A stretch of 42,415 nucleotides of DNA. Source: Lachnospiraceae bacterium. Lineage in GTDB: Bacteria; Bacillota; Clostridia; Lachnospirales; Lachnospiraceae. The translations under genes and the position numbers were made by a program. The notes under the pieces were generated by a model. It was not told the DNA's origin and ran no database searches. It saw only the letters and a list, made by a program, of their open reading frames with translations. The stretch is taken from assembly GCA_024681775.1 (NCBI GenBank), contig JAILAF010000074.1, positions 1 through 42,415 on the forward strand, read 5' to 3'. Positions 7,051-42,415 of the stretch are shown one piece after another (the first letter of the stretch is position 1; each line of letters begins with the position of its first letter).

Positions 7051-8328
7051 TCACATCGCGATCTCAAAAACGATCTCGCTGCCTGCGGGGAGGGTCTCCA
7101 GATCCGCCTTTTTGAGGGTCAGCTGTTCCATCTCGCCGGGCGCAAGGACGTTCTTCTTCCGCTCCAACAGCACCCGGTCGCCTGCGGTGACGCGGATGGT
7201 GGCATTGCGGTAATTGCTGCCCACGCGGAAGCGGATCACCTGGCTGTCCTCCATATGGGACAGACGGATCGTGGCAGGGACCGTGTAGCGGACACCGTTT
7301 GTTCCCGTGAGGCGAAGGGGCGCTTCGTCATCGGCCGGCACACTTTCCGACACATTCGTCACATATTCCGCAGCCTTTCTTCCGGCTGCGGCCGCCTCCT
7401 CGGATACGTAGTCCACCAGGTCATGCACATGCAGCACATTGCCGCAGGCAAAAACGCCGGGCACTTCGGTCTCAAAGCTCTCATTGACCAGCGGGCCGCC
7501 GGTGACTCTGCTTAAGGGGACTCCCAGCTTCCCGGAGAGCTCGTTCTCCGGCAGGAGTCCGCAGGAGAGCAGCAGGGTGTCACATTCGTACTCGGTCTCG
7601 GTACCGGGGATGGGCTTTAAATGCTCATCCACCTGTGCGATGGTAACGGACTCCACCCGCTCCTTGCCCTTGATGTCCACCACGGTGTGGCTCAGGAGCA
7701 GGGGGATGTCAAAATCGTTCAGGCACTGGGCGATGTTGCGCTTCAGGCCGCCGGAGTAGGGCTGGAGTTCCGCAACGCAGCGGACCTTTGCTCCCTCCAG
7801 GGTCATGCGGCGGGCCATGATGAGGCCGATGTCGCCGGAGCCCAGGATCACTACGGTACGGCCGGGCATTCTGCCCTCGATGTTCACATAGCGCTGGGCC
7901 GTGCCCGCGGTATAGATGCCAGCGGGGCGCATGCCGGGAATGTTCAATGCACCTCTGGGGCGCTCCCTGCAGCCCATGGCAAGGATCACGGACTTTGCCC
8001 TGATCTGAAAAATGCCGCGCTCCCTGCTCATGGCAGTGACGATCTTGTCATTTCCGTCCCTGCCCAGATCCACCACCATGGTGCTGAGTTCATAGGGGAT
8101 CTGCAGCTCAGCCGCTTCCCGGATGAAGCGGTCCGCATACTCGGGGCCGGTAAGCTCCTCCTTGAAGGTGTGCAGTCCGAAGCCGTTGTGGATGCACTGG
8201 TTCAAAATCCCTCCCAGGCGGTTGTCCCGCTCCAGGATCAGCAGATCGTCTATTCCGGCTTTTTTCGCTGCCACCGCAGCTGCCAGTCCCGCGGGACCGC
8301 CGCCGATGATCACCAAATCTTTCGTCAT
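7051..8328 (-). CDS. FAD/NAD(P)-binding oxidoreductase of the glycerol operon
   Basis: Flavoprotein of 425 residues. The FAD dinucleotide-binding motif is VIIGGGPAGLAA at residues 6-17, and a second Rossmann motif (VVILGSGDIGL, near 180) should bind NAD(P)H. The motif ACGNVLHVHDLVD near the FAD-binding end is typical of pyridine-nucleotide disulfide oxidoreductase folds, and a beta-rich tail of about 95 residues follows it. Encoded 29 bp after the GlpA-like gene and before DUF1667, it probably passes electrons from the dehydrogenase flavin to NAD or another carrier. The start is ATG 8328, with AAAGGA upstream; the frame continues to 8490 but overlaps the upstream gene. Sometimes annotated GlpB-like; I leave the symbol empty. 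Confidence 0.88.
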   Translation of the reverse strand: MTKDLVIIGGGPAGLAAAVAAKKAGIDDLLILERDNRLGGILNQCIHNGFGLHTFKEELTGPEYADRFIREAAELQIPYELSTMVVDLGRDGNDKIVTAMSRERGIFQIRAKSVILAMGCRERPRGALNIPGMRPAGIYTAGTAQRYVNIEGRMPGRTVVILGSGDIGLIMARRMTLEGAKVRCVAELQPYSGGLKRNIAQCLNDFDIPLLLSHTVVDIKGKERVESVTIAQVDEHLKPIPGTETEYECDTLLLSCGLLPENELSGKLGVPLSRVTGGPLVNESFETEVPGVFACGNVLHVHDLVDYVSEEAAAAGRKAAEYVTNVSESVPADDEAPLRLTGTNGVRYTVPATIRLSHMEDSQVIRFRVGSNYRNATIRVTAGDRVLLERKKNVLAPGEMEQLTLKKADLETLPAGSEIVFEIAM

Positions 8329-8357
8329 GGCTTTATCCTTTCTGCGCAAGCGTTTTT

Positions 8358-9797
8358 CTAAATGTCCTCTTTGATATAGCCCGTCAGGAATTCCGATCCG
8401 GGATTGTTCTTTCTGATCTGTGCCGGATCCGTGCCCAGCTCTCTTGCCAGGATCTCCACCACCTTGGGGGAGCAGAATCCGGACTGGCATCTTCCCATGC
8501 CCGCTCTGGTGCGGCGCTTCACACCGTCCAGGGTCGTGGCACCCACCGGCCTATGGATGGCTTCCACGATCTCACCCTCGGTCACCAGCTCGCAGCGGCA
8601 GATCACGTTTGCGTAGCGGGGATCTGCGGCGATCAGGCGGGAGCGCTCCTCGGGGCCGGCCAGGGCCATGTTGGGGATTCCCTTACGGGTGGGGATAAAG
8701 TCGCTCTTTTTCTCTGCCTTCAGGTACGCTGCCACCTGCTCCGCCAGGACTTCCCCGATGGCGGGAGCACAGGTCAGGCCGGGAGACTCGATGCCGGCTG
8801 CGTCAAAGAAGCCGGGGAAGCCTTCCGGGGAACCGATGACAAAATCGTCCTTCTCCTCATGGGCACGGATGCCGGAGAAGGAGGTGATGACGGATCTGGA
8901 AGGAAGGGAACGGACACTGAGCGCCGCCTTGGCCGTCAGCTCCGCGATGCCTTCTGCGGTGGTGGCGGTATCCTCTCCGTCCGGAATATCCGTTGCGGTG
9001 GGGCCCGTCAGGAGATTTCCGTGAACGGTGGGCGTCACCAGAACGCCCTTCCCCAGTGCGGTGGGCAGCTGGAAAAGGGTGTGGCTCACCAGGTCTCCCA
9101 CATTTTTGTCCATGAGGCAGTACTCGCCGCGGCGGGGGATGATCTTCAGCTCTTCCTTCCCCACGACGCGGTTGTGGAAGAAATCGGAGTGGACGCCCGC
9201 GGCGTTGATGATGACCTTCGCCTGCATGGTGCCCTTGTCCGTGTCGATCTCATAACCGCCCGAAATGACACGGATGTCGGTTGCTTCGGTATTCAGCAGA
9301 AACTCCGCACCGTTGACCGCTGCATTTTCCGCCATGGCGATGGTCAGGAGGAAGGGACAGACGATGCCGCCGGTGGGCGCATGGAGGGCAGCCACCACGC
9401 TGTCACTCACTGCAGGCTCCAGCGCTCTTACCGCATCACCCTCCAGGATCTCCAGGCCCTTGACGCCATTGGCGACGCCCTGATCGTAGAGGCGCTGCAG
9501 TGTGGCCCTGCCGGACTCTTCAAAGCAGAGCACCAGGCTGCCGTTCCGTTTGAAGGGAATGTCCAGCTCCTCGGAGAGCCTGCCCATCATCTCGTTGCCG
9601 CGCACATTCAGTTTTGCCTTTAAGGTACCGGGTTTTGCGTCATATCCGGCATGAACGATCCCGCTGTTGGCCTTGGAAGTTCCCTCACAGACATCGGAAT
9701 TCTTCTCCAGCACCAGCAGGTCCAGCTTGTAGGCCGACAGTTCTCTCGCGATGCTGCAGCCGGTCACGCCTCCCCCCAGAATGATCACATCTCTCAT
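8358..9797 (-). CDS. glpA: Glycerol-3-phosphate dehydrogenase, GlpA-like, with BFD-type iron-sulfur domain
   Basis: FAD-dependent oxidation of sn-glycerol 3-phosphate to dihydroxyacetone phosphate. 479 residues: the FAD motif VIILGGGVTGCS is at the N-terminus, a DAO-type oxidoreductase fold runs to about 375, and a BFD-like [2Fe-2S] domain at the C-terminus has cysteines C400, C402, C437 and C442. The fused iron-sulfur domain separates it from plain GlpD. It is first in the operon with a clear promoter at 9869-9897. The other flavoprotein and DUF1667 are probable partners, so the complex would pass electrons away from oxygen, consistent with an anaerobe. Confidence 0.88.
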   Translation of the reverse strand: MRDVIILGGGVTGCSIARELSAYKLDLLVLEKNSDVCEGTSKANSGIVHAGYDAKPGTLKAKLNVRGNEMMGRLSEELDIPFKRNGSLVLCFEESGRATLQRLYDQGVANGVKGLEILEGDAVRALEPAVSDSVVAALHAPTGGIVCPFLLTIAMAENAAVNGAEFLLNTEATDIRVISGGYEIDTDKGTMQAKVIINAAGVHSDFFHNRVVGKEELKIIPRRGEYCLMDKNVGDLVSHTLFQLPTALGKGVLVTPTVHGNLLTGPTATDIPDGEDTATTAEGIAELTAKAALSVRSLPSRSVITSFSGIRAHEEKDDFVIGSPEGFPGFFDAAGIESPGLTCAPAIGEVLAEQVAAYLKAEKKSDFIPTRKGIPNMALAGPEERSRLIAADPRYANVICRCELVTEGEIVEAIHRPVGATTLDGVKRRTRAGMGRCQSGFCSPKVVEILARELGTDPAQIRKNNPGSEFLTGYIKEDI

Positions 9798-34693: not shown

Positions 34694-34727
34694 AAAATCC
34701 GGGGGCACAAGCCCCCGGATCTTTTAT
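34694..34727. terminator. Bidirectional terminator between tadA and the AAA+ protease gene
   Basis: 9-bp stem ATCCGGGGG / CCCCCGGAT with a 6-nt loop; a T-rich tail follows on the plus side and an A-rich stretch on the other, so it can serve both genes. Confidence 0.85.
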
Positions 34728-37700
34728 TGCGTTTTTCGGCTTTCCCCTTCGGCGGCAGCTCCTTCCGGCGGGAGCTCGCCCGTCTCCATGAGGCTCTCGA
34801 ACTCCTTGCCGGTGAGGCGGTTTTCCTTCACCAGGACATCGGCGATCTTTTTGATCCTGTCCTTGTTTTCCTCGATGATACGGATGGTCTCCGCCATCTG
34901 GTCCGCCAGGATCCGGTTGACCTTCGCCACATAGTCGTCTGCCAGCGCGGAGGAAAGGATCTCCTTCCTGCCCAGGACGATAAGGCTGTTCTCATCCATA
35001 CCGTAGGTGCTGATGATGCGGAAGGCCACGTTGGTAGCCTGCTCCAGATCGCTGGATGCACCGGTGTTCAGCGCCACATCCTTGCCATAAAAGACCTGCT
35101 CGGCCGCACGGCCAGCCAGGCTGGTACGGATCCGGGCCAGGAGTTCCTCCTTCGTGTAGCTGGGGGTCTCCTCCTGGTTGGCATGCTGCATGTAGCCGCC
35201 AAAGTTTCCTCTGGACTCGATGGTGATGTAGGAAGGCTTGTCCCCGCTAATGTAGGACAGGAAAGCGTGTCCGGTCTCATGGATGGCCACCCGTCTGTAA
35301 TACTCGGGGGTGTGCTCCTTCTTCTCACCGTAGTTGTACTCTTCCAGTGCGGAGAGCAGATCATCGTCCGTCATGGCACGCTCTGCTCTGGTGGCGGCAC
35401 GGAACGCCAGGTCGATGACATTCTGCAGCACGGCAAGGCTCTGACCCGTGGTACGCTCAGCGATGCTCTGGGCCGTATTTTCCGACACGGTCGTCACACC
35501 CTTGTTTTCCAGTACGCGGAGGATGTACAGCTTCCGCTCACTTTCCTTCGGCAGATCCACATAGATCTTGTTGTCGAAGCGGCGGATCAGGGCATCGTCC
35601 AGGGAGGAGATGCCGTCGGACTCGGCGCCCACACCGAAATTGGTGGCTGCCAGGACGAAGACCGGCTTGTTGGGGTCGCTTCCGGAGAAGCCGTCCATCT
35701 CGGTGAGCAGGGTGTTGAGCATGCTCTCATTGCCGCTGGTAAATTCGCTGCCGGTACGCTTCTTGCCGATGGCGTCGATCTCATCGATGAAGATGATGGC
35801 GGGAGCATATTTCCGCGCTCTGGCAAAGAGCTTCCGGATATTCTCCTCGCTGACGCCCACGTATTTGTTCTTGAACTCTGCGGCGCTGGTCTGGAGGAAG
35901 GTCACATCCGACTCTCCTGCCATGGCCTTGGCCAGCATGGTCTTACCGGTTCCGGGAGGGCCGTAGAGCAGCACGCCCTTCGGCGGCTTTCCGCCGTTCA
36001 TGAGGAACTTCTTGGGATTCGTCAGGTATTTGACGAAATAAGCCAGCTCTTCCTTGGCATTCTCCGCACCGATGACATCTCCGAAGCGCACATTGGGGCG
36101 CTCTGCATCGGAGAGGATGGAGCCTCTGCTCTCCACATCCACCGCCATACGCTTGCGGATGTTGTAGATGGTGATCTTCACATCACTGCCGCTGATCTCC
36201 TGCTTGGTGTTGAAGTCCACGATCCAGCCCCTCTGGGTGAAGGCCTGGCTCTCTTTTTCCATGTAGAGCTCTTCCAGAGTCTGCTCGAACATTCTCCGGA
36301 AGCTCTCGATGCGGGCCGGCTTCAGATCCACGGTACCCACCGCACCTTCCTGAATAAAGGTCTGCTTGTCCACATCGGAGAGGGAATGATCGGTCTCCAG
36401 CAGATAGATGGGCAGGCCGGACTGGTTCTCTGCCAGCTCGTGGAAGAGGCGGACGCCGTCGGTGTTGTAATCGGAGATGGACAGCACGGTCTCGCTGTTT
36501 GCATTTTTGCCGAAGAAGGGATCGATGTAGGCTACAGCCAGATCTCCCTGCACCAGCTCCCGGGCATCCTCGATGGTGGCTGCGCGATGCACGTGGTACT
36601 GGTCGGAGGAGAGGGCCTCGGACACATCGTACTCCTCAGAGGTAAAGAACAGGATATCCGCGGATTCCTCGTTCCGGAACAGGTGCATCAGCTCGGGATC
36701 GATGCCGTCCCAGTCCACGTCGATGTTGATGGAGGTGATCTTCTCCCCGCCGGTGTTTTTCTGCATCTGGCGCAGGAGTTCAAAGATCTCGTTCTTCAGG
36801 AACTTGCCGCTCTGGCCCGTAGCGACACGCGCGTCAATATCTCCGCCGCGGTTGTAGAGGAACATCAGCGGCAGGAAATTGGAATATGTGATGCGGATGC
36901 CGTACTCACTCTCCATGTCGGTGACGATCCGCTCGAAATTGGTATTCACCATGTCCGTCAGATGCCGGATGGAGAGGTGGTTGAACATGATGGTGTTGCC
37001 GGAGGCGATACGGGAACAGATCTCGGGAGGCAGTGCAGGCTCCCCGGAGGGATCCTTCTCCTTGGCGATGCTGTCGATCAGCACCTTCTCCGGCAGAGTG
37101 GTGAGGTTGACACTCCTGTCAGCATACAGTTCTCTGCCCACGTTGGAGGTAAAGATGATGGTAACATCGGAGAAGCTCACATCCTCATCCCGGTAGACAT
37201 TGTTCAGCTTGCCGGCACCCAGGATCTGCAGGAAGAGCCGGATCACGTTGATGTGTGCCTTCTCGATCTCGTCAAAGACCAGCAGGCACTCGGGATTCTC
37301 CCGGACATATTTCACCAGGCTGCCTTCCTTGGCCGTGTTGTAGATCTTGGAGATACCGATGAGCTCCTCGTGGGACTGGTGGGAGGAATACTCACTCATA
37401 TTGAAGATCTTGAAGGGCATGCCCAGGGCTTCCGCAGCGGTCTCCGCCAGCAGGGTCTTGCCCACGCCGGGAGGGCCGAAGAAGAAGAAATAGGAGCGGG
37501 GACGCTTGCCTCTTTCCGCGTGTTTCAGGAGCTCACCCTGATTGATGCCCTGGACGAACTTCAGGACGGCATGGTCCTGACCCTTGACCACATCCAGCAA
37601 AGCGGAATTCAGTGCGCGGTAGCGCTCGGAGAGTTTCTCCAGATCGGGGATCTCATCGTTATTTTCGGAGCGGCCTTCGGAAGTCTCCTTCTTCTCATCC

Positions 37701-38314
37701 TTCTCCCCGGCGTCACTTTCCTTTTTGTAGGACCTCTTCCCGGATTCTTCGGTGTGCTTTTCTTCTTCGCTCTCCGCAGGGGCACCCTCCTGCTTCTGGG
37801 GTCTGGGCGCCTTTTCGTCCTTTGCTTTCTTCTCTTCCTCAGCCGCCTTCTCATCCGCATGTGCTTCGGCGTACTTTTTGGAAGCTTCCTTCATGTCCTC
37901 CTGAACATTGAAGATATGAGTCATCTCCCTGCCGTCGGCAAATACTTTACGGAAGTCGATGGCGGAAAGTGACAGCGCCTTGTCCAGAATGTCGGGAGAG
38001 GAGACCTTTCCGTCCCTGTCCAGATAGTTCCGGAACTCCTCCAGATCCGCCTTCCGTTCATCGTCCCTGATGATCAGCGGGCTCAGGATCATAAGGCCGG
38101 ATTTGATCAGCTTCAGATCCATTTTTTTGTCGGAAAACCACCTGCGGGCGGCATCCAGGTCTCCCATGTCCTCATCGGTGATGAGGTTCCGGATCTGGGT
38201 CTCGTCCATCAAAAGCAGCTTCGCGTAGCCGAAGATCACGGCCTCCGGCGTGACAGGATCAAAATTCCTGCAAAGCTGCAGGACCGTGGTTAAAACCTGT
38301 GAGTCGATCGCCAT
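34724..38314 (-). CDS. Soluble double-AAA+ metalloprotease: ClpB-like AAA+, receiver-like domain, FtsH-type AAA+ and M41 protease
   Basis: 1196 residues. An N-terminal helical domain (1-145) is followed by a Lys/Glu-rich linker (about 145-222) and a Clp/HSP100-like AAA+ module with Walker A GPPGVGKT (280-287) and Walker B LLVFDEIEKAH (344-354). Next comes a response-regulator-like domain (about 552-685) with D598, T641 and K665 in the conserved places but no N-terminal acidic pair. The end is an FtsH-type AAA+ module, Walker A GPPGTGKT (785-792) and Walker B IIFIDEID (840-847), and an M41 protease with HETGH (1012-1016) and third zinc ligand D1089. FtsH's transmembrane segments are missing, so it should be cytosolic. 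AGGGGGT precedes ATG 38314. Probably an unfolding and degrading machine; substrates are unknown. Confidence 0.9.
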   Translation of the reverse strand: MAIDSQVLTTVLQLCRNFDPVTPEAVIFGYAKLLLMDETQIRNLITDEDMGDLDAARRWFSDKKMDLKLIKSGLMILSPLIIRDDERKADLEEFRNYLDRDGKVSSPDILDKALSLSAIDFRKVFADGREMTHIFNVQEDMKEASKKYAEAHADEKAAEEEKKAKDEKAPRPQKQEGAPAESEEEKHTEESGKRSYKKESDAGEKDEKKETSEGRSENNDEIPDLEKLSERYRALNSALLDVVKGQDHAVLKFVQGINQGELLKHAERGKRPRSYFFFFGPPGVGKTLLAETAAEALGMPFKIFNMSEYSSHQSHEELIGISKIYNTAKEGSLVKYVRENPECLLVFDEIEKAHINVIRLFLQILGAGKLNNVYRDEDVSFSDVTIIFTSNVGRELYADRSVNLTTLPEKVLIDSIAKEKDPSGEPALPPEICSRIASGNTIMFNHLSIRHLTDMVNTNFERIVTDMESEYGIRITYSNFLPLMFLYNRGGDIDARVATGQSGKFLKNEIFELLRQMQKNTGGEKITSINIDVDWDGIDPELMHLFRNEESADILFFTSEEYDVSEALSSDQYHVHRAATIEDARELVQGDLAVAYIDPFFGKNANSETVLSISDYNTDGVRLFHELAENQSGLPIYLLETDHSLSDVDKQTFIQEGAVGTVDLKPARIESFRRMFEQTLEELYMEKESQAFTQRGWIVDFNTKQEISGSDVKITIYNIRKRMAVDVESRGSILSDAERPNVRFGDVIGAENAKEELAYFVKYLTNPKKFLMNGGKPPKGVLLYGPPGTGKTMLAKAMAGESDVTFLQTSAAEFKNKYVGVSEENIRKLFARARKYAPAIIFIDEIDAIGKKRTGSEFTSGNESMLNTLLTEMDGFSGSDPNKPVFVLAATNFGVGAESDGISSLDDALIRRFDNKIYVDLPKESERKLYILRVLENKGVTTVSENTAQSIAERTTGQSLAVLQNVIDLAFRAATRAERAMTDDDLLSALEEYNYGEKKEHTPEYYRRVAIHETGHAFLSYISGDKPSYITIESRGNFGGYMQHANQEETPSYTKEELLARIRTSLAGRAAEQVFYGKDVALNTGASSDLEQATNVAFRIISTYGMDENSLIVLGRKEILSSALADDYVAKVNRILADQMAETIRIIEENKDRIKKIADVLVKENRLTGKEFESLMETGELPPEGAAAEGESRKTQ

Positions 38315-38351
38315 AGATTTACCCCCTTGATAGTAGATTTAACACTCTGTC

Positions 38352-38357
38352 ATTATA
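38352..38357 (-). promoter_or_regulatory. -10 element of the AAA+ protease gene
   Basis: Perfect minus-strand TATAAT about 40 nt before the ATG. No good -35 lies 16-18 bp upstream, which suggests activation. A small palindrome AACTGACAGTT (38395-38405) lies further upstream. Confidence 0.5.
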
Positions 38358-38429: not shown

Positions 38430-39926
38430 TCAGACCGTTCCGTCTTCCTTCTCCTCCCCGGAGGGAGCCCGTTTTCCATGCAGATGGTACAGGCCGGTCA
38501 GCTCCTTGCGGCTGCTGCAGCCGGTCTTTTTGTAGATGTTCTTGATGTGGTACTTCACGGTGTTTTCCGAGATGACCATGCGCTCCGCGATCTCCTTGTT
38601 GATCTCCCCCTCCAGAAGACGCCGCAGCACCTCCGTCTCTCTGGAGGAAAACCCGTACCCTGCGGCGAAAGTCTGCAAGGGGTCGGACGCGGGGACCGCT
38701 CCTTCGGGCTGTGCGTGAGCCTTCTCCGGTTCACCGGCGAAGGCCGCTCCGATGGCGGAAGCATCCACGGAAGCAAAGAGCATGAACAACAATACCAGGG
38801 CGACGGCAAAGGAGACGGACAGGACCGTGATGTGCAGCGCCCTGCTCCCGGAAAGCTCCACGCCGAGAAAGATCCCAAAGGCCTCTCCCGCACGGCCGAA
38901 CATCATACCGTAGGAAGCGATAAACAGCAGGGAAGGCGCCGTGCCCGCCAGGTCGGCGAAAAGGAGCGCCCGGGTCACAGCGAAAAATCCCAGGATCACG
39001 TAGGCCAGGATCCAGACGGTCAGGCCTGCCGCCAGGTTGTCCAGAAGGACCAGCGATACAAAAGGAAAGATCAGCGTGGTGCTGCTGATGATGAAGCCCA
39101 GCTTGCGGTTCCGGTCGTGAAGGAGTCCCGCGCCGATCAGCCCCACGGAATAGAAGGCACGGGAAAGCTCATGGGGGATCCCCGCCCGGGTGATGTCCAC
39201 GGAAGGAAAATAAAAACCCATGTTCTGCACCATGTCCACCAGGAGGATGGTGACCGCCATCAGGAGAAAGAACCGAAAGCCCTCGGTGATGCGGCCGTCA
39301 GCCGTGCGAAGCCCCGGAAGCTGCTGTACGTCTCCCGAAGCACGCTCTTCCCGCAGGGCGCACAGGAGCGGCGCACCGAAGAAAAAGGCGAGGATCGCCA
39401 GGATCCCATATACGATCCAGACCCCCTTCGTGACGATGAAGGTCCCGCCCACAGGAAGGGACAGAAGATAGGTGGCAATGCTGGCAAAGGCACCTCCCAG
39501 GCCAAAAGCGATGCCCCGCCTCCCCTTCGGCACGCAGGCGGAAAGAGTGGTGAGATAGTAGCCAAAAAGGGGCCCGATGAGGAAATTGGCCAGAAGACCC
39601 AACGCTAAGACAGCCGCGCTGGCGGTGGCAAAAACGGACCCCGCACAGAGCAAAAACCAGGCGGCCAGGATCGCGGCCAGGGCCGCGGGGCGCAGGATCA
39701 GGCCCGGCTTTCTCCTGACCAGAACGGAAAAGAGAATCATTCCCAGAATATGGATGATATAGACACCGGATTCTGCCAGCAGATCCACCCATTTTCCCGA
39801 CATAAAGCCCGCCAGGCGATAGTACCAGGTAAGGAAGGCGCAGCTGGTCACCAGGAAGGTCAGGCCGAGAAAGAGGGATCCAAAGAGGACAGGTGCCGAT
39901 TTGTGTGCTGTGAGATAGTTTTTCAT
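38430..39926 (-). CDS. Membrane-embedded LuxR-type regulator (polytopic sensor plus HTH)
   Basis: 498 residues: about twelve hydrophobic segments spread over residues 10-390, like an MFS-type permease, then a cytosolic linker and a LuxR/FixJ helix-turn-helix (about 425-485; SSRETEVLRRLLEGEINKEIAERM, ISENTVKYHIKNIYKKTG). Such one-component membrane regulators are common in Coriobacteria and occur in some clostridia; the ligand is unknown. The start is ATG 39926, since the first membrane helix begins about ten residues later. There is no Shine-Dalgarno, and the -10 element ends 7 bp before the ATG, so the mRNA may be leaderless. It is divergent from a secreted protein gene and upstream of the AAA+ protease on the same strand. 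Confidence 0.88.
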   Translation of the reverse strand: MKNYLTAHKSAPVLFGSLFLGLTFLVTSCAFLTWYYRLAGFMSGKWVDLLAESGVYIIHILGMILFSVLVRRKPGLILRPAALAAILAAWFLLCAGSVFATASAAVLALGLLANFLIGPLFGYYLTTLSACVPKGRRGIAFGLGGAFASIATYLLSLPVGGTFIVTKGVWIVYGILAILAFFFGAPLLCALREERASGDVQQLPGLRTADGRITEGFRFFLLMAVTILLVDMVQNMGFYFPSVDITRAGIPHELSRAFYSVGLIGAGLLHDRNRKLGFIISSTTLIFPFVSLVLLDNLAAGLTVWILAYVILGFFAVTRALLFADLAGTAPSLLFIASYGMMFGRAGEAFGIFLGVELSGSRALHITVLSVSFAVALVLLFMLFASVDASAIGAAFAGEPEKAHAQPEGAVPASDPLQTFAAGYGFSSRETEVLRRLLEGEINKEIAERMVISENTVKYHIKNIYKKTGCSSRKELTGLYHLHGKRAPSGEEKEDGTV

Positions 39927-39933
39927 AAGAAAA

Positions 39934-39962
39934 ATAGTACCACAAAAAGGGGGCACTTGGAA
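39934..39962 (-). promoter_or_regulatory. Promoter of the membrane LuxR gene
   Basis: Minus-strand TTCCAA (39962-39957, weak), 17 bp, TACTAT (39939-39934). The predicted transcription start falls at or next to the ATG. Confidence 0.55.
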
Positions 39963-40032: not shown

Positions 40033-40124
40033 GAAAATACGCTTACGGAGGGGGGCTTCGGGAGAACCTGATCCGGCAGGGATCTGTTAATTGTATCCGG
40101 AAAACCACAAAAGGAGACATGCTT

Positions 40125-42415
40125 ATGGTACACATCAAGAAAAGGTTCCTGTTACTGTTGGCTGCTACCGCTCTGTTTACGGCCTTCCTGCTGGCGGTGG
40201 TACTCCCCGGAAACGAACTTCGGGCCGAAGCAATGGCACCGGAGATCACCTTTACCATCAGGCTCACCGGTGAGCAGGAGGAAAACACCACGGTGTGGGT
40301 TTCCTATGCGAACACCCCGTCGACCGCAGACAGCGGCAATGAACTGCATAACGGTGACGAGTTTGGTGCAGTTCGCGGATCGGGTTTTCATATCTGGGTC
40401 CGTGTTCCCTACGGCTATGAACTGGCTGACGGCAGCGTTTCCGTGACCAAGGACGGAAGTCAGGATGATTATAACGATGTTTTCGACGGCGCATGGAACA
40501 TCGATGTTTCCAACGATGCTCCCTCCGAGGGATTGTGGTATCCCATCACAGTTAGGGACGATTATGACCTGAACAGAGGCACGGCGCTGGATCTGAACCT
40601 GTACGTCACCGCCAAGGATGACCCGGCACGCAGCTGGACGGAATGGGCGAACCCCGGACTGGCAAGCTCCTTCTCTGTCCAGGCAGACAGTCTGGAACTC
40701 ATCTCTTTCTTCTGGTATGAGGACAGTAACGGAGACCGGGTACTGGACGGATCGGAGACGGAAAACGGCGAGGACTATTTTAACGGATTCCCGGAAGGCT
40801 CCAACGTCATCAATGCCCGGAACAGATGTCTGGCTTTCAACATCATCATCGATCCCGGCTTTGTCATGGACGAGAGTGCCACCATCACCATCACGGCTGA
40901 TTCCGGGGACCCCGATGACTTTAACTACAACGGTCGTCTGAAAGACTTCATGAGCGATATGGGACCGTGGTTTTCCCTCCCCGGCAGCAACAATCCCGCT
41001 GTCCATCCTACCTATACCATCTCCATCCAACATATGAAGGTCAGAGAGATGGCACCGGAAGAGTATCTGGGCACCTACCTGGTCGATGTGATAAGTGTGG
41101 ACTACGACATTCAGGATTACGTGGATTTCGGTACCAAAAAAGCGAACGGGGACGAGATTCCGGGCACCTATGCCAATCAGGACACCATTGTCTGGACGGC
41201 TTTCCCCGATGACGCAACGGAGCTCTTTATCAGCATTATCAATGACTCCGACCGGTATCATTTCGAGACCGGATGGGTAGAAGAGTTCGACATTGACGAC
41301 AATCTCATCAGCACCCAGTACATTGACAACGCTGTGATCCGGGATGAACGGACCGCTTCCGTTTCCATCGACTCGGACCACAAATATGTTTTCCATGTGA
41401 TCTTCTCTCCCAACAAACGGGTCTACTGGGAGTACGGTGAGGGTGCGGACAAAGTGGAGCATGCCACCATCGAGCTGCTGGAAGCAGAAGGCAACGACCC
41501 CGTGGATCCTTCCGCCGTGCGGAACGGGGAAGATTTCTCGCTGCCCGTGGGCACCAAATACTATTTCCGCATGATCCCCGATTACGGGTACCAGGTGGCA
41601 GGCCTCGTCATCAACAACACAGAACTGACCCCCATTGACGGCGATGCCAATATGGGCATCTTCTCCTTTACCCTGGGAAACGCAGACTTCTGTCTGACTC
41701 CTTCCCTTGCCACTTCCGAAGATGAACTGAATGCAGACAGCGATGTGGTGGACGGCCTGACCATCTCGGACGGCGCGCAGGGCGGCATCGGCGGCAACTT
41801 CGCCATGACGGTTTCCGACACGGAGACGGATGGAGATGCAGCTGATCACACGGGAACCGGTTTTATCGCTACACCTCTGGCTACCCTGAACCTGTCTCTG
41901 GAGCAGGTGGTGAGCAAAGGTAACGGCGATGACTGGCGCAAAAACCTGACAGAGCTGGAAGGCCCCATCACGGTAGGCATGGCCCTGGATGCGGAGCTGG
42001 TCCCGGAGGGCTCCACCCTGACTGTGGTGCAAAACATCGGCGGCATCTACACGGAGCTGGAAACCACTTATGATGCCGAAAACGGGGAGGTACGCTTCCC
42101 TGCAGACCGTTTCTCCGCACCCGCACCGGCTTCCAAAGCAGCCGGGAAGAGGACTGCAGCAATCGGAGGCGATGAGATCTTCGCTTCCTATACACTCCTT
42201 CTGGTTCCCGACAATGCAGGAGGAGAAGCAGCGATCGTTCACTACTACGAGATCATTCTCGGAAGAACGCCCACCGAGGAAGAAGTGGCCGCATGGGCAC
42301 AAGGGCTGGAGGATAAATCCTTAAGCATGGCCAACATCCTGGCAGGATTCTTCTACAGTCCCGAGTTCGCAGATAACGGATATACCTCGGAAGAGATCAT
42401 TGCAAAGATGTATCT
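40125..42415 (+). CDS. Large secreted protein with C-terminal DUF4214 domain (3' end cut by window edge)
   Basis: 763 codons visible, frame open at the right edge. A signal peptide (about 1-37) has a KKR start, a hydrophobic core and probable cleavage after AEA. The body is acidic, rich in Asp, Asn, Gly and aromatic residues, with several beta-rich stretches resembling extracellular surface or adhesion modules, for instance FHIWVRVPYGYEL and DHKYVFHVIFSPNKRV. Near residue 703 begins a DUF4214-like region (HYYEIILGRTPTEEEV, then GFFYSPEF), a domain found in many clostridial surface proteins. ATG 40125 is preferred (GGAG at 40113, 8-nt spacing) over ATG 40119. Target and function are not recognisable. 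Confidence 0.85.
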   Translation, partial: MVHIKKRFLLLLAATALFTAFLLAVVLPGNELRAEAMAPEITFTIRLTGEQEENTTVWVSYANTPSTADSGNELHNGDEFGAVRGSGFHIWVRVPYGYELADGSVSVTKDGSQDDYNDVFDGAWNIDVSNDAPSEGLWYPITVRDDYDLNRGTALDLNLYVTAKDDPARSWTEWANPGLASSFSVQADSLELISFFWYEDSNGDRVLDGSETENGEDYFNGFPEGSNVINARNRCLAFNIIIDPGFVMDESATITITADSGDPDDFNYNGRLKDFMSDMGPWFSLPGSNNPAVHPTYTISIQHMKVREMAPEEYLGTYLVDVISVDYDIQDYVDFGTKKANGDEIPGTYANQDTIVWTAFPDDATELFISIINDSDRYHFETGWVEEFDIDDNLISTQYIDNAVIRDERTASVSIDSDHKYVFHVIFSPNKRVYWEYGEGADKVEHATIELLEAEGNDPVDPSAVRNGEDFSLPVGTKYYFRMIPDYGYQVAGLVINNTELTPIDGDANMGIFSFTLGNADFCLTPSLATSEDELNADSDVVDGLTISDGAQGGIGGNFAMTVSDTETDGDAADHTGTGFIATPLATLNLSLEQVVSKGNGDDWRKNLTELEGPITVGMALDAELVPEGSTLTVVQNIGGIYTELETTYDAENGEVRFPADRFSAPAPASKAAGKRTAAIGGDEIFASYTLLLVPDNAGGEAAIVHYYEIILGRTPTEEEVAAWAQGLEDKSLSMANILAGFFYSPEFADNGYTSEEIIAKMY

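Follow-up and report, generated by a model that had tools for sequence, protein, structure and literature searches.

Clp and FtsH, both textbook AAA+ machines, are regarded as separate, Clp being soluble with a detachable peptidase and FtsH being anchored in the membrane. Here we analyzed a stretch of 42,415 nucleotides from a Lachnospiraceae bacterium (contig JAILAF010000074.1; "the window" denotes this whole stretch), in which one minus-strand gene at 34724–38314 encodes a chain of 1196 residues that joins a Clp-type AAA+ module, a receiver-fold domain and an FtsH-type AAA+ module with an M41 metalloprotease (hereafter the fusion). The open reading frame (ORF) and its translation placed the ATG at 38314 and the stop codon at 34724, so that the coordinates and length given in an earlier note on this DNA proved exact; the strand is an addition of ours.

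Several described systems resemble the fusion in part. Like ClpC or ClpA working with ClpP, it has a D2-type AAA+ module with a pore aromatic residue, an arginine finger and sensor 2, and perhaps a Clp-type N-domain; unlike them, it lacks a D1 ring and the [ILV]G[FL] motif, and its protease is a covalently linked metalloprotease. Like FtsH (M41; TIGR01241), it combines AAA+ and M41 with HExxH and a third Asp, and is ~40% identical to local FtsH proteins, but it has no membrane segments and carries a Clp module and a receiver-fold domain in front. Against TIGR01241 it scored 341.8 bits, compared with an equivalog cut-off of 600, over residues 729–1171 only. The transmissible locus of stress tolerance (tLST) also brings together a Clp motor, ClpK (ClpG), and an FtsH protease as accessory protein-quality genes, but according to the account in PMC8290217 these genes are separate, the FtsH is membrane-bound and the chaperones are sHsp20 proteins, not YbjN. 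In the MoxR-vWA ternary systems, FtsH-type ATPases likewise occur in accessory gene sets, some with ClpN repeats; as outlined in PMC7159879, however, these have two FtsH-type ATPase domains, the first inactive, with MoxR and vWA partners, and section 21 of that paper mentions neither M41 nor Clp D2. The YbjN family represents the fold class of the partner protein described below, but the passages concerned on DR1245 (PMC3575483) and AmyR (PMC5398634) mention no AAA+ partner. As the earlier note had supposed, we found no description of this domain order among the listed full-text literature matches, judged by title and the start of the abstract, with subscription papers mostly, and domain-architecture databases, beyond reach of this search; the architecture may already be listed somewhere without comment.

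The gene and its domains are as follows (window coordinates).
34724–38314, minus strand: fusion gene, 1196 amino acids (P0001), from ORF, translation, Pfam and homologues in 20 genomes
37895–38314, minus strand: helical N-domain, residues ~1–140, perhaps a divergent Clp N-domain, from AlphaFold2, Foldseek and PDB matches of locus L069
37649–37894, minus strand: charged low-complexity linker, residues 141–222, from the translation
36725–37639, minus strand: Clp-type AAA+ (AAA_2), residues 226–530, nearest to ClpC D2, from Pfam, phmmer and the motif table
36245–36667, minus strand: predicted receiver-fold domain, residues 550–690, with phosphotransfer residues not conserved, from the model, Foldseek and alignment columns
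36143–36226, minus strand: predicted beta hairpin, residues 697–724, linking the receiver-like domain and the FtsH module, from model secondary structure
35315–36106, minus strand: FtsH-type AAA+, residues 737–1000, from Pfam, the motif table and phmmer
34790–35299, minus strand: M41 metalloprotease, residues 1006–1175, from Pfam and the motif table

Two AAA+ modules and a protease in one chain

Three Pfam families matched the fusion over their cut-offs: AAA_2 (residues 272–436, 114 bits), AAA (781–920, 172 bits) and Peptidase_M41 (1006–1175, 105 bits). The AAA_2 module carries Walker A GPPGVGKT (280–287), Y325, Walker B D348/E349, R435 and R496, of which we take Y325 to be the pore aromatic, R435 the arginine finger and R496 the sensor-2 residue. 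In the FtsH-type module we found Walker A GPPGTGKT (785–792), the pore residue Y818 and Walker B D844/E845, followed by an M41 site with HETGH (1012–1016) and the third ligand D1089; this module matched FtsH (4ww0) with a phmmer E value of 6.6e-74. The earlier note's description of two engines of different clades, both with intact Walker A and B, in one soluble chain ending in an intact M41 site is thus borne out by Pfam and the motif table.

We compared the hydropathy of the fusion with that of ordinary FtsH proteins, for which 25 loci were tried and 20 had an ORF passing the motif filter. The highest 19-residue Kyte–Doolittle mean of the window protein was 1.16, compared with 2.05–3.17 in the 20 FtsH proteins, and the maxima of all 21 fusion rows lay between 0.91 and 1.70, whereas all 20 FtsH proteins reached 2.05 or more. 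By hydropathy, therefore, the absence of membrane segments noted earlier was confirmed, and the window protein is predicted to be soluble and cytosolic.

The first engine had been labeled ClpB-like. For residues 222–534, however, the best phmmer match was ClpC (E = 3.4e-24), followed by ClpE, Hsp101 and ClpB, so that its nearest relative is ClpC D2 instead. The D1 and D2 pair of Hsp100 class 1 was not found; only a D2-like domain is present, with the ClpA model matched from position 445 on and ClpC from residue 504. Furthermore, none of 20 fusion rows contained [ILV]G[FL] after sensor 1 (L063 and L069 read AGL there), which we take to be the ClpP-docking motif of ClpA and ClpC. As controls, all four Clp proteins fetched as ClpP-partner types had the motif, and the ClpB encoded beside the L063 fusion did not. 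Because this motif is absent from all 20 rows, the M41 chamber probably takes the place of ClpP in the fusion.

The N-domain was described earlier as helical, and the AlphaFold2 model of residues 1–150 was indeed all-helical (pLDDT, the predicted local distance difference test, 87). With Foldseek, nothing matched it at E ≤ 1e-3; ranks one and three were ClpB N-domains (E = 1.8 and 2.8) and rank two was an unrelated viral protein. A profile of this domain likewise found no convincing match in the PDB. Its counterpart in L069 had 24 PDB matches at E ≤ 1, all of them Clp subunits (best E = 0.0064), and Pfam Clp_N appeared below cut-off in L063 (E = 0.022) and L069 (E = 0.11), being not listed for the window protein. 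Against a Clp N-domain counts the failure of the Lachnospiraceae N-domain profile to recover the N-domains of L063 (E = 0.99), L006 and L007. We suggest with modest confidence, on evidence that is weak and mixed, that it is a divergent Clp N-domain.

A receiver fold between the motors

An AlphaFold2 model of residues 536–742, built from 15 sequences, had a pLDDT of 80 and a predicted template modeling score of 0.73 and showed the strand–helix order of a receiver. Searched against the PDB with Foldseek, it had 112 matches with E values of 1e-3 or below, NtrX and PhoP coming first, and the best 50 of the 112 by E value were all receiver-domain proteins. Sequence comparison gave weaker signals (YycF, E = 0.0055; Pfam Response_reg, 15.5 bits compared with a cut-off of 30.2). 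Structure prediction thus agrees with the receiver-like fold of the earlier note, and the three residues named there (Asp598, Thr641 and Lys665) are present in the window protein.

The same three residues bear on the possibility, also raised earlier, that the domain is a phosphorylation switch controlling transfer between the engines. We take the phosphotransfer site of a receiver to consist of an acidic pair, a phospho-acceptor Asp, a Thr or Ser, and a Lys. The receiver fold itself and the column of D598 (D in 18 of 19 aligned rows, E in L063) would suit such a switch, but Lys stands at the K665 column in only 2 of 19 rows, one row being gapped and the 90%-identical relative having N, while Thr stands at the T641 column in 3 of 15 rows, nor is the acidic pair typical of receivers conserved. 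The L063 fusion is immediately preceded by a Ser/Thr-kinase gene, and L052 and L061 have kinase genes within ~10 kb; Ser/Thr kinases are not usual partners of receivers, and none of the minus-strand neighbors of the window gene that were compared with Pfam is a kinase. Because Thr641 and Lys665 are not conserved, we rejected the phospho-switch and consider gating by phosphorylation highly improbable. The middle domain is, as far as the model and alignment indicate, a receiver fold in which only the Asp of the phosphotransfer set is kept.

A proposed two-ring machine

The domains, the intact motifs, the predicted solubility, the missing ClpP motif and the co-occurrence with YbjN described below are established at the level of sequence. 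Beyond these, we consider it on balance probable that the fusion is a self-contained, cytosolic, ATP-dependent unfoldase–protease in which two ATPase rings are stacked and YbjN serves as adaptor. Six chains would probably build the two rings above one protease ring. The ring of N-domains and Clp D2 modules would engage the substrate, the receiver-fold domains might form a collar between the rings, and the substrate would then be threaded from the Clp ring to the FtsH ring and on into the M41 chamber. A YbjN-type protein, encoded adjacently or elsewhere, would probably present or hold the substrate, and protein quality control may be the function. Two FtsH-like matches and one Clp protein occur elsewhere in the host genome, and the fusion is therefore an additional machine.

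Occurrence, conservation and phylogeny

The earlier note had allowed for unannotated homologues, and we found the architecture in 21 genes from 20 genomes, 18 of which belong to Lachnospiraceae; Butyrivibrio sp. FCS014 has a second, distant copy. The genomes searched were samples, and the counts below are likewise samples of the full spread. A whole-protein search matched 59 of 59 relatives, most of those listed being ordinary FtsH or Clp. A profile built from the middle region matched 7 of the 31 genus genomes, 4 of the 299 family genomes at E ≤ 1e-5 (the window's own, G341, G067 and G187, the last rejected) and 2 of the 299 phylum genomes (G495 besides the window's own). In the order of G495, only G495 itself matched (1 of 4). 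For the genome of L063, the profile matched only itself in its phylum (1 of 296), and itself and G1205 (weak, 5.2e-6, 465-residue frame) in its order (2 of 295). The G187 match (E = 6e-6) was rejected: it is a 196-residue frame with an internal stop, and no local ORF of at least 250 residues looked fusion-like by eye.

A scan of genome contigs yielded 14 loci, 13 from Lachnospiraceae or Butyrivibrio and one from a Tannerellaceae metagenome-assembled genome (MAG). Twelve of the 13 were from MAGs (two labeled Sheep_Rumen), and Butyrivibrio sp. FCS014 was not marked as a MAG. Pairs found twice were counted once (L050 = G003, L056 = G019, L057 = G024, L060 = G341). In L051, L058 and L069, a contig end truncates the protein within M41 or ahead of it (M41 being unseen in L058 and L069), the N-terminus is cut or unclear in L055 and L062, and L057 is a C-terminal piece only. 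The fusion gene of G024 (L004, 1492–4985) is divided between two overlapping frames by decay, a frameshift or a sequencing error.

We then examined the conservation of the motifs. The FtsH Walker A and B motifs are intact in all 19 aligned rows, HExxH in all 18 rows that reach it, and the third-ligand Asp in 17 of 17. The AAA_2 Walker A motif is intact in 17 of 18 rows, and the pore aromatic residues are kept in 16 of 18 (AAA_2) and 16 of 19 (FtsH). L063 is without the AAA_2 pore aromatic. Between the window gene and L050 (90% identical), the ratio of nonsynonymous to synonymous substitution rates (dN/dS) was 0.10 overall, with 0.040 for AAA_2, 0.084 for the receiver-like domain, 0.080 for the FtsH AAA, 0.075 for M41 and 0.25 for the linker and hairpin; the linker of the window protein is 53% identical to that of its nearest relative. 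Compared with the more distant L056, dN/dS was 0.14–0.51 by domain (dS, 0.7–1.4). Both motors and M41 are thus under purifying selection in close pairs. The presence of the architecture in 20 genomes together with the low dN/dS indicates that the fusion is neither a chance product nor an assembly chimera.

Some relatives have lost part of one motor. L005 lost Walker A, the pore loop, the arginine finger and sensor 2 of AAA_2, although its FtsH motifs and HESGH are retained; L006 and L007 have no FtsH pore-loop segment but retain the AAA_2 motifs; and the FtsH pore aromatic is replaced by H in both FtsH copies of L041 and by A in the second FCS014 copy (L070). Such losses would be expected if only one ring were a true motor and the other a scaffold or regulator, with FtsH working in most members and the Clp half serving assembly, recruitment or allostery. 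We regard this explanation as unlikely, though worth weighing: both motors keep the checked motifs in the window protein and in most aligned relatives, and dN/dS is low in both.

In a tree with 20 ordinary FtsH proteins, all from the same order, a branch with 100/100 support separated the 17 fusion FtsH rows from these proteins. L050, L051, L053, L058 and L069 were left out, L041 was included twice, and the program flagged the branches of L063, L005 and L070 as long. The G067 fusion (L041, 3127–7968) is a 1613-residue protein with an RNase H1 N-terminal domain, AAA_2, a receiver-like part, two FtsH-type ATPases and M41. Because its two FtsH-type ATPases group together in the tree (100/100), they most likely arose by internal duplication. 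The next gene (7958–8722) encodes an RNase H that shares the N-terminal domain. The Tannerellaceae fusion stands between other genes of note (L063, 5069–14853): a kinase-WD40 gene ends 6 bases before it, and a full ClpB ORF starts 62 bases after it.

Mobile elements were also searched. Among 72,556 plasmid records, no place covered 80% of the query, and of 3808 partial matches the ten listed were FtsH or Clp genes; the middle domain was unmatched in 50,697 phage records, and 152 pattern matches for it in viral contigs included none that was confirmed. A plasmid or phage origin was rejected on these searches.

The phage and viral-contig results also count against a role in conflict or defense, in which the fusion would be an accessory chaperone–protease that activates or degrades an effector or a phage protein. 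The spread of the fusion in the genus and the family is patchy (7 of 31 and 4 of 299 genomes, one of the latter rejected), and MoxR-vWA systems with FtsH-type ATPases have been put forward as conflict systems in the relevant part of PMC7159879. At L062 (3400–6630), a TPR protein encoded 16 bases after the fusion showed NACHT and HEPN matches below Pfam cut-offs and a PADLOC match to Avs2 (4.1e-5). However, no effector-like gene recurs beside the fusion in 22 clustered stretches, and the PADLOC matches on the fusion itself fall over its ATPase modules. We therefore consider a defense role improbable.

Association with YbjN genes

In the same 22 clustered stretches, YbjN was the only neighbor family found in more than five. 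YbjN proteins have a type III-chaperone fold, according to the portions of PMC5398634 and PMC3575483 concerned. A YbjN (PF10722) gene ends 2–22 bases before the fusion in L051, L052, L053, L054, L057, L058, L059 and L060, with two copies upstream in L060. In L055 (1–180), the contig starts inside a YbjN gene, of which the final ten codons (ending FMKALWA) and the stop codon remain; where the fusion would be expected to begin, its frame lacks a usual start codon. For G000, G003 and G019, YbjN lies on another contig. Altogether, YbjN was found in 12 of 13 genomes with this N-domain, directly upstream in nine and unlinked in three. In the thirteenth (L062), the genome search gave no YbjN match, and the contig begins inside the fusion gene. 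Pfam PF10722 scored 31–47 bits (cut-off, 22) in the three upstream proteins tested and was over the cut-off in 7 of 12 genomes.

Within the genus, YbjN occurred in 5 of 31 genomes, namely all 4 with the fusion subtype of the window and 1 of the 27 others (G021, with a different YbjN by eye). The hypergeometric probability of this co-occurrence was about 1.6e-4, uncorrected for relatedness. Members with other N-termini had no adjacent YbjN (L006, L007, L041, L061, L063 and the second FCS014 copy, at L070 5650–9069). Genome searches gave no YbjN for G018, G002, G020, G067 and G646 and none of the partner type for the genome of L061, whereas G495 had three YbjN matches, of another type by eye. 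At L061 (12136–14638), a 181-residue protein without a Pfam match and a CbbX-like AAA+ are encoded directly after a fusion lacking the N-domain.

Several observations weigh against the proposed two-ring, YbjN-fed machine. The motif losses in L005, L006/L007, L041 and the second FCS014 copy suggest that some lineages manage without two working rings. No YbjN match was obtained for G018, whose N-domain match is weak. The YbjN subfamily occurred in 13 of 299 family genomes (E ≤ 1e-8), of which 11 were without the fusion in the profile search. In 3 of 8 fusion-free regions (L094, L098 and L099), YbjN stands directly before a CbbX-like AAA+ gene, and two of these three CbbX-like partners (L098 and L099) lack the N-domain of the fusion. 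It also lies near Hsp70-like genes, being divergent from Hsp70-like and GrpE-like genes in L096 and ~3 kb from an Hsp70-like gene in L097. The tail of YbjN, considered as a docking tag specific to the fusion, was rejected, since it is common to YbjN near Hsp70-like genes. As to heat-shock regulation, a scan of 15 upstream regions for what we take to be the CtsR and CIRCE (controlling inverted repeat of chaperone expression) consensus sequences gave no clear site; the best had 4–6 and 6–9 mismatches, within the shuffle range, but a ClpC control gave none either, so that the scan speaks neither for nor against such regulation.

The CbbX-like ATPase of L094 shares the N-domain of the fusion (E = 1.5e-9, 14 proteins searched), a single instance in which N-domain and YbjN have stayed together with a different motor. 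In L096 (902–6540), an Hsp70-like gene and a gene for a metallo-beta-lactamase protein with a GrpE-like end lie divergent from the YbjN gene. No CbbX-like or Hsp70-like neighbor adjoins YbjN in L095, L100 and L101.

Surroundings of the fusion gene in the window

Two short elements precede the gene.
38352–38357, minus strand: TATAAT, possible –10 box, 43 bases upstream of the ATG, from sequence only
38322–38328, minus strand: AAGGGGG, likely ribosome-binding site, from sequence

The sequence AAGGGGGT likewise precedes the ATG of the fusion genes in L050 and L056. A long ORF on the plus strand (34727–37972) overlaps the fusion gene and is taken for its putative shadow. Upstream on the same strand, the nearest large ORF (38430–39956, minus strand) has a LuxR-type DNA-binding domain behind a hydrophobic half that matches MFS below cut-off. 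Downstream of the fusion gene lie a serine acetyltransferase-like gene (below the NCBIfam cut-off), PrmA, an RNA methyltransferase and a class V aminotransferase. None of these neighbors has an obvious connection to the fusion. A further long ORF at 40119–42413 on the plus strand has no Pfam match and, by eye, a signal-peptide-like start; the 716-residue ORF opposite looks like its shadow.

Implications

Our tentative view, to which we give somewhat less than even credence, is that the fusion represents a new class of cytosolic AAA+ protease, in which a D1-less Clp ring, a collar of phospho-dead receiver domains and an M41-bearing FtsH ring, all from one polypeptide, would be fed by YbjN, and which has relatives with one motor disabled. 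A natural covalent Clp–FtsH stack raises the question of how motors from two different clades handle a common substrate, and relatives in which one motor is partly lost are ready comparisons; if the two-motor reading is true, single-motor versions of a two-motor machine already exist in nature. The pairing with YbjN would offer a testable role for a family with a chaperone-like fold and a poorly understood function.

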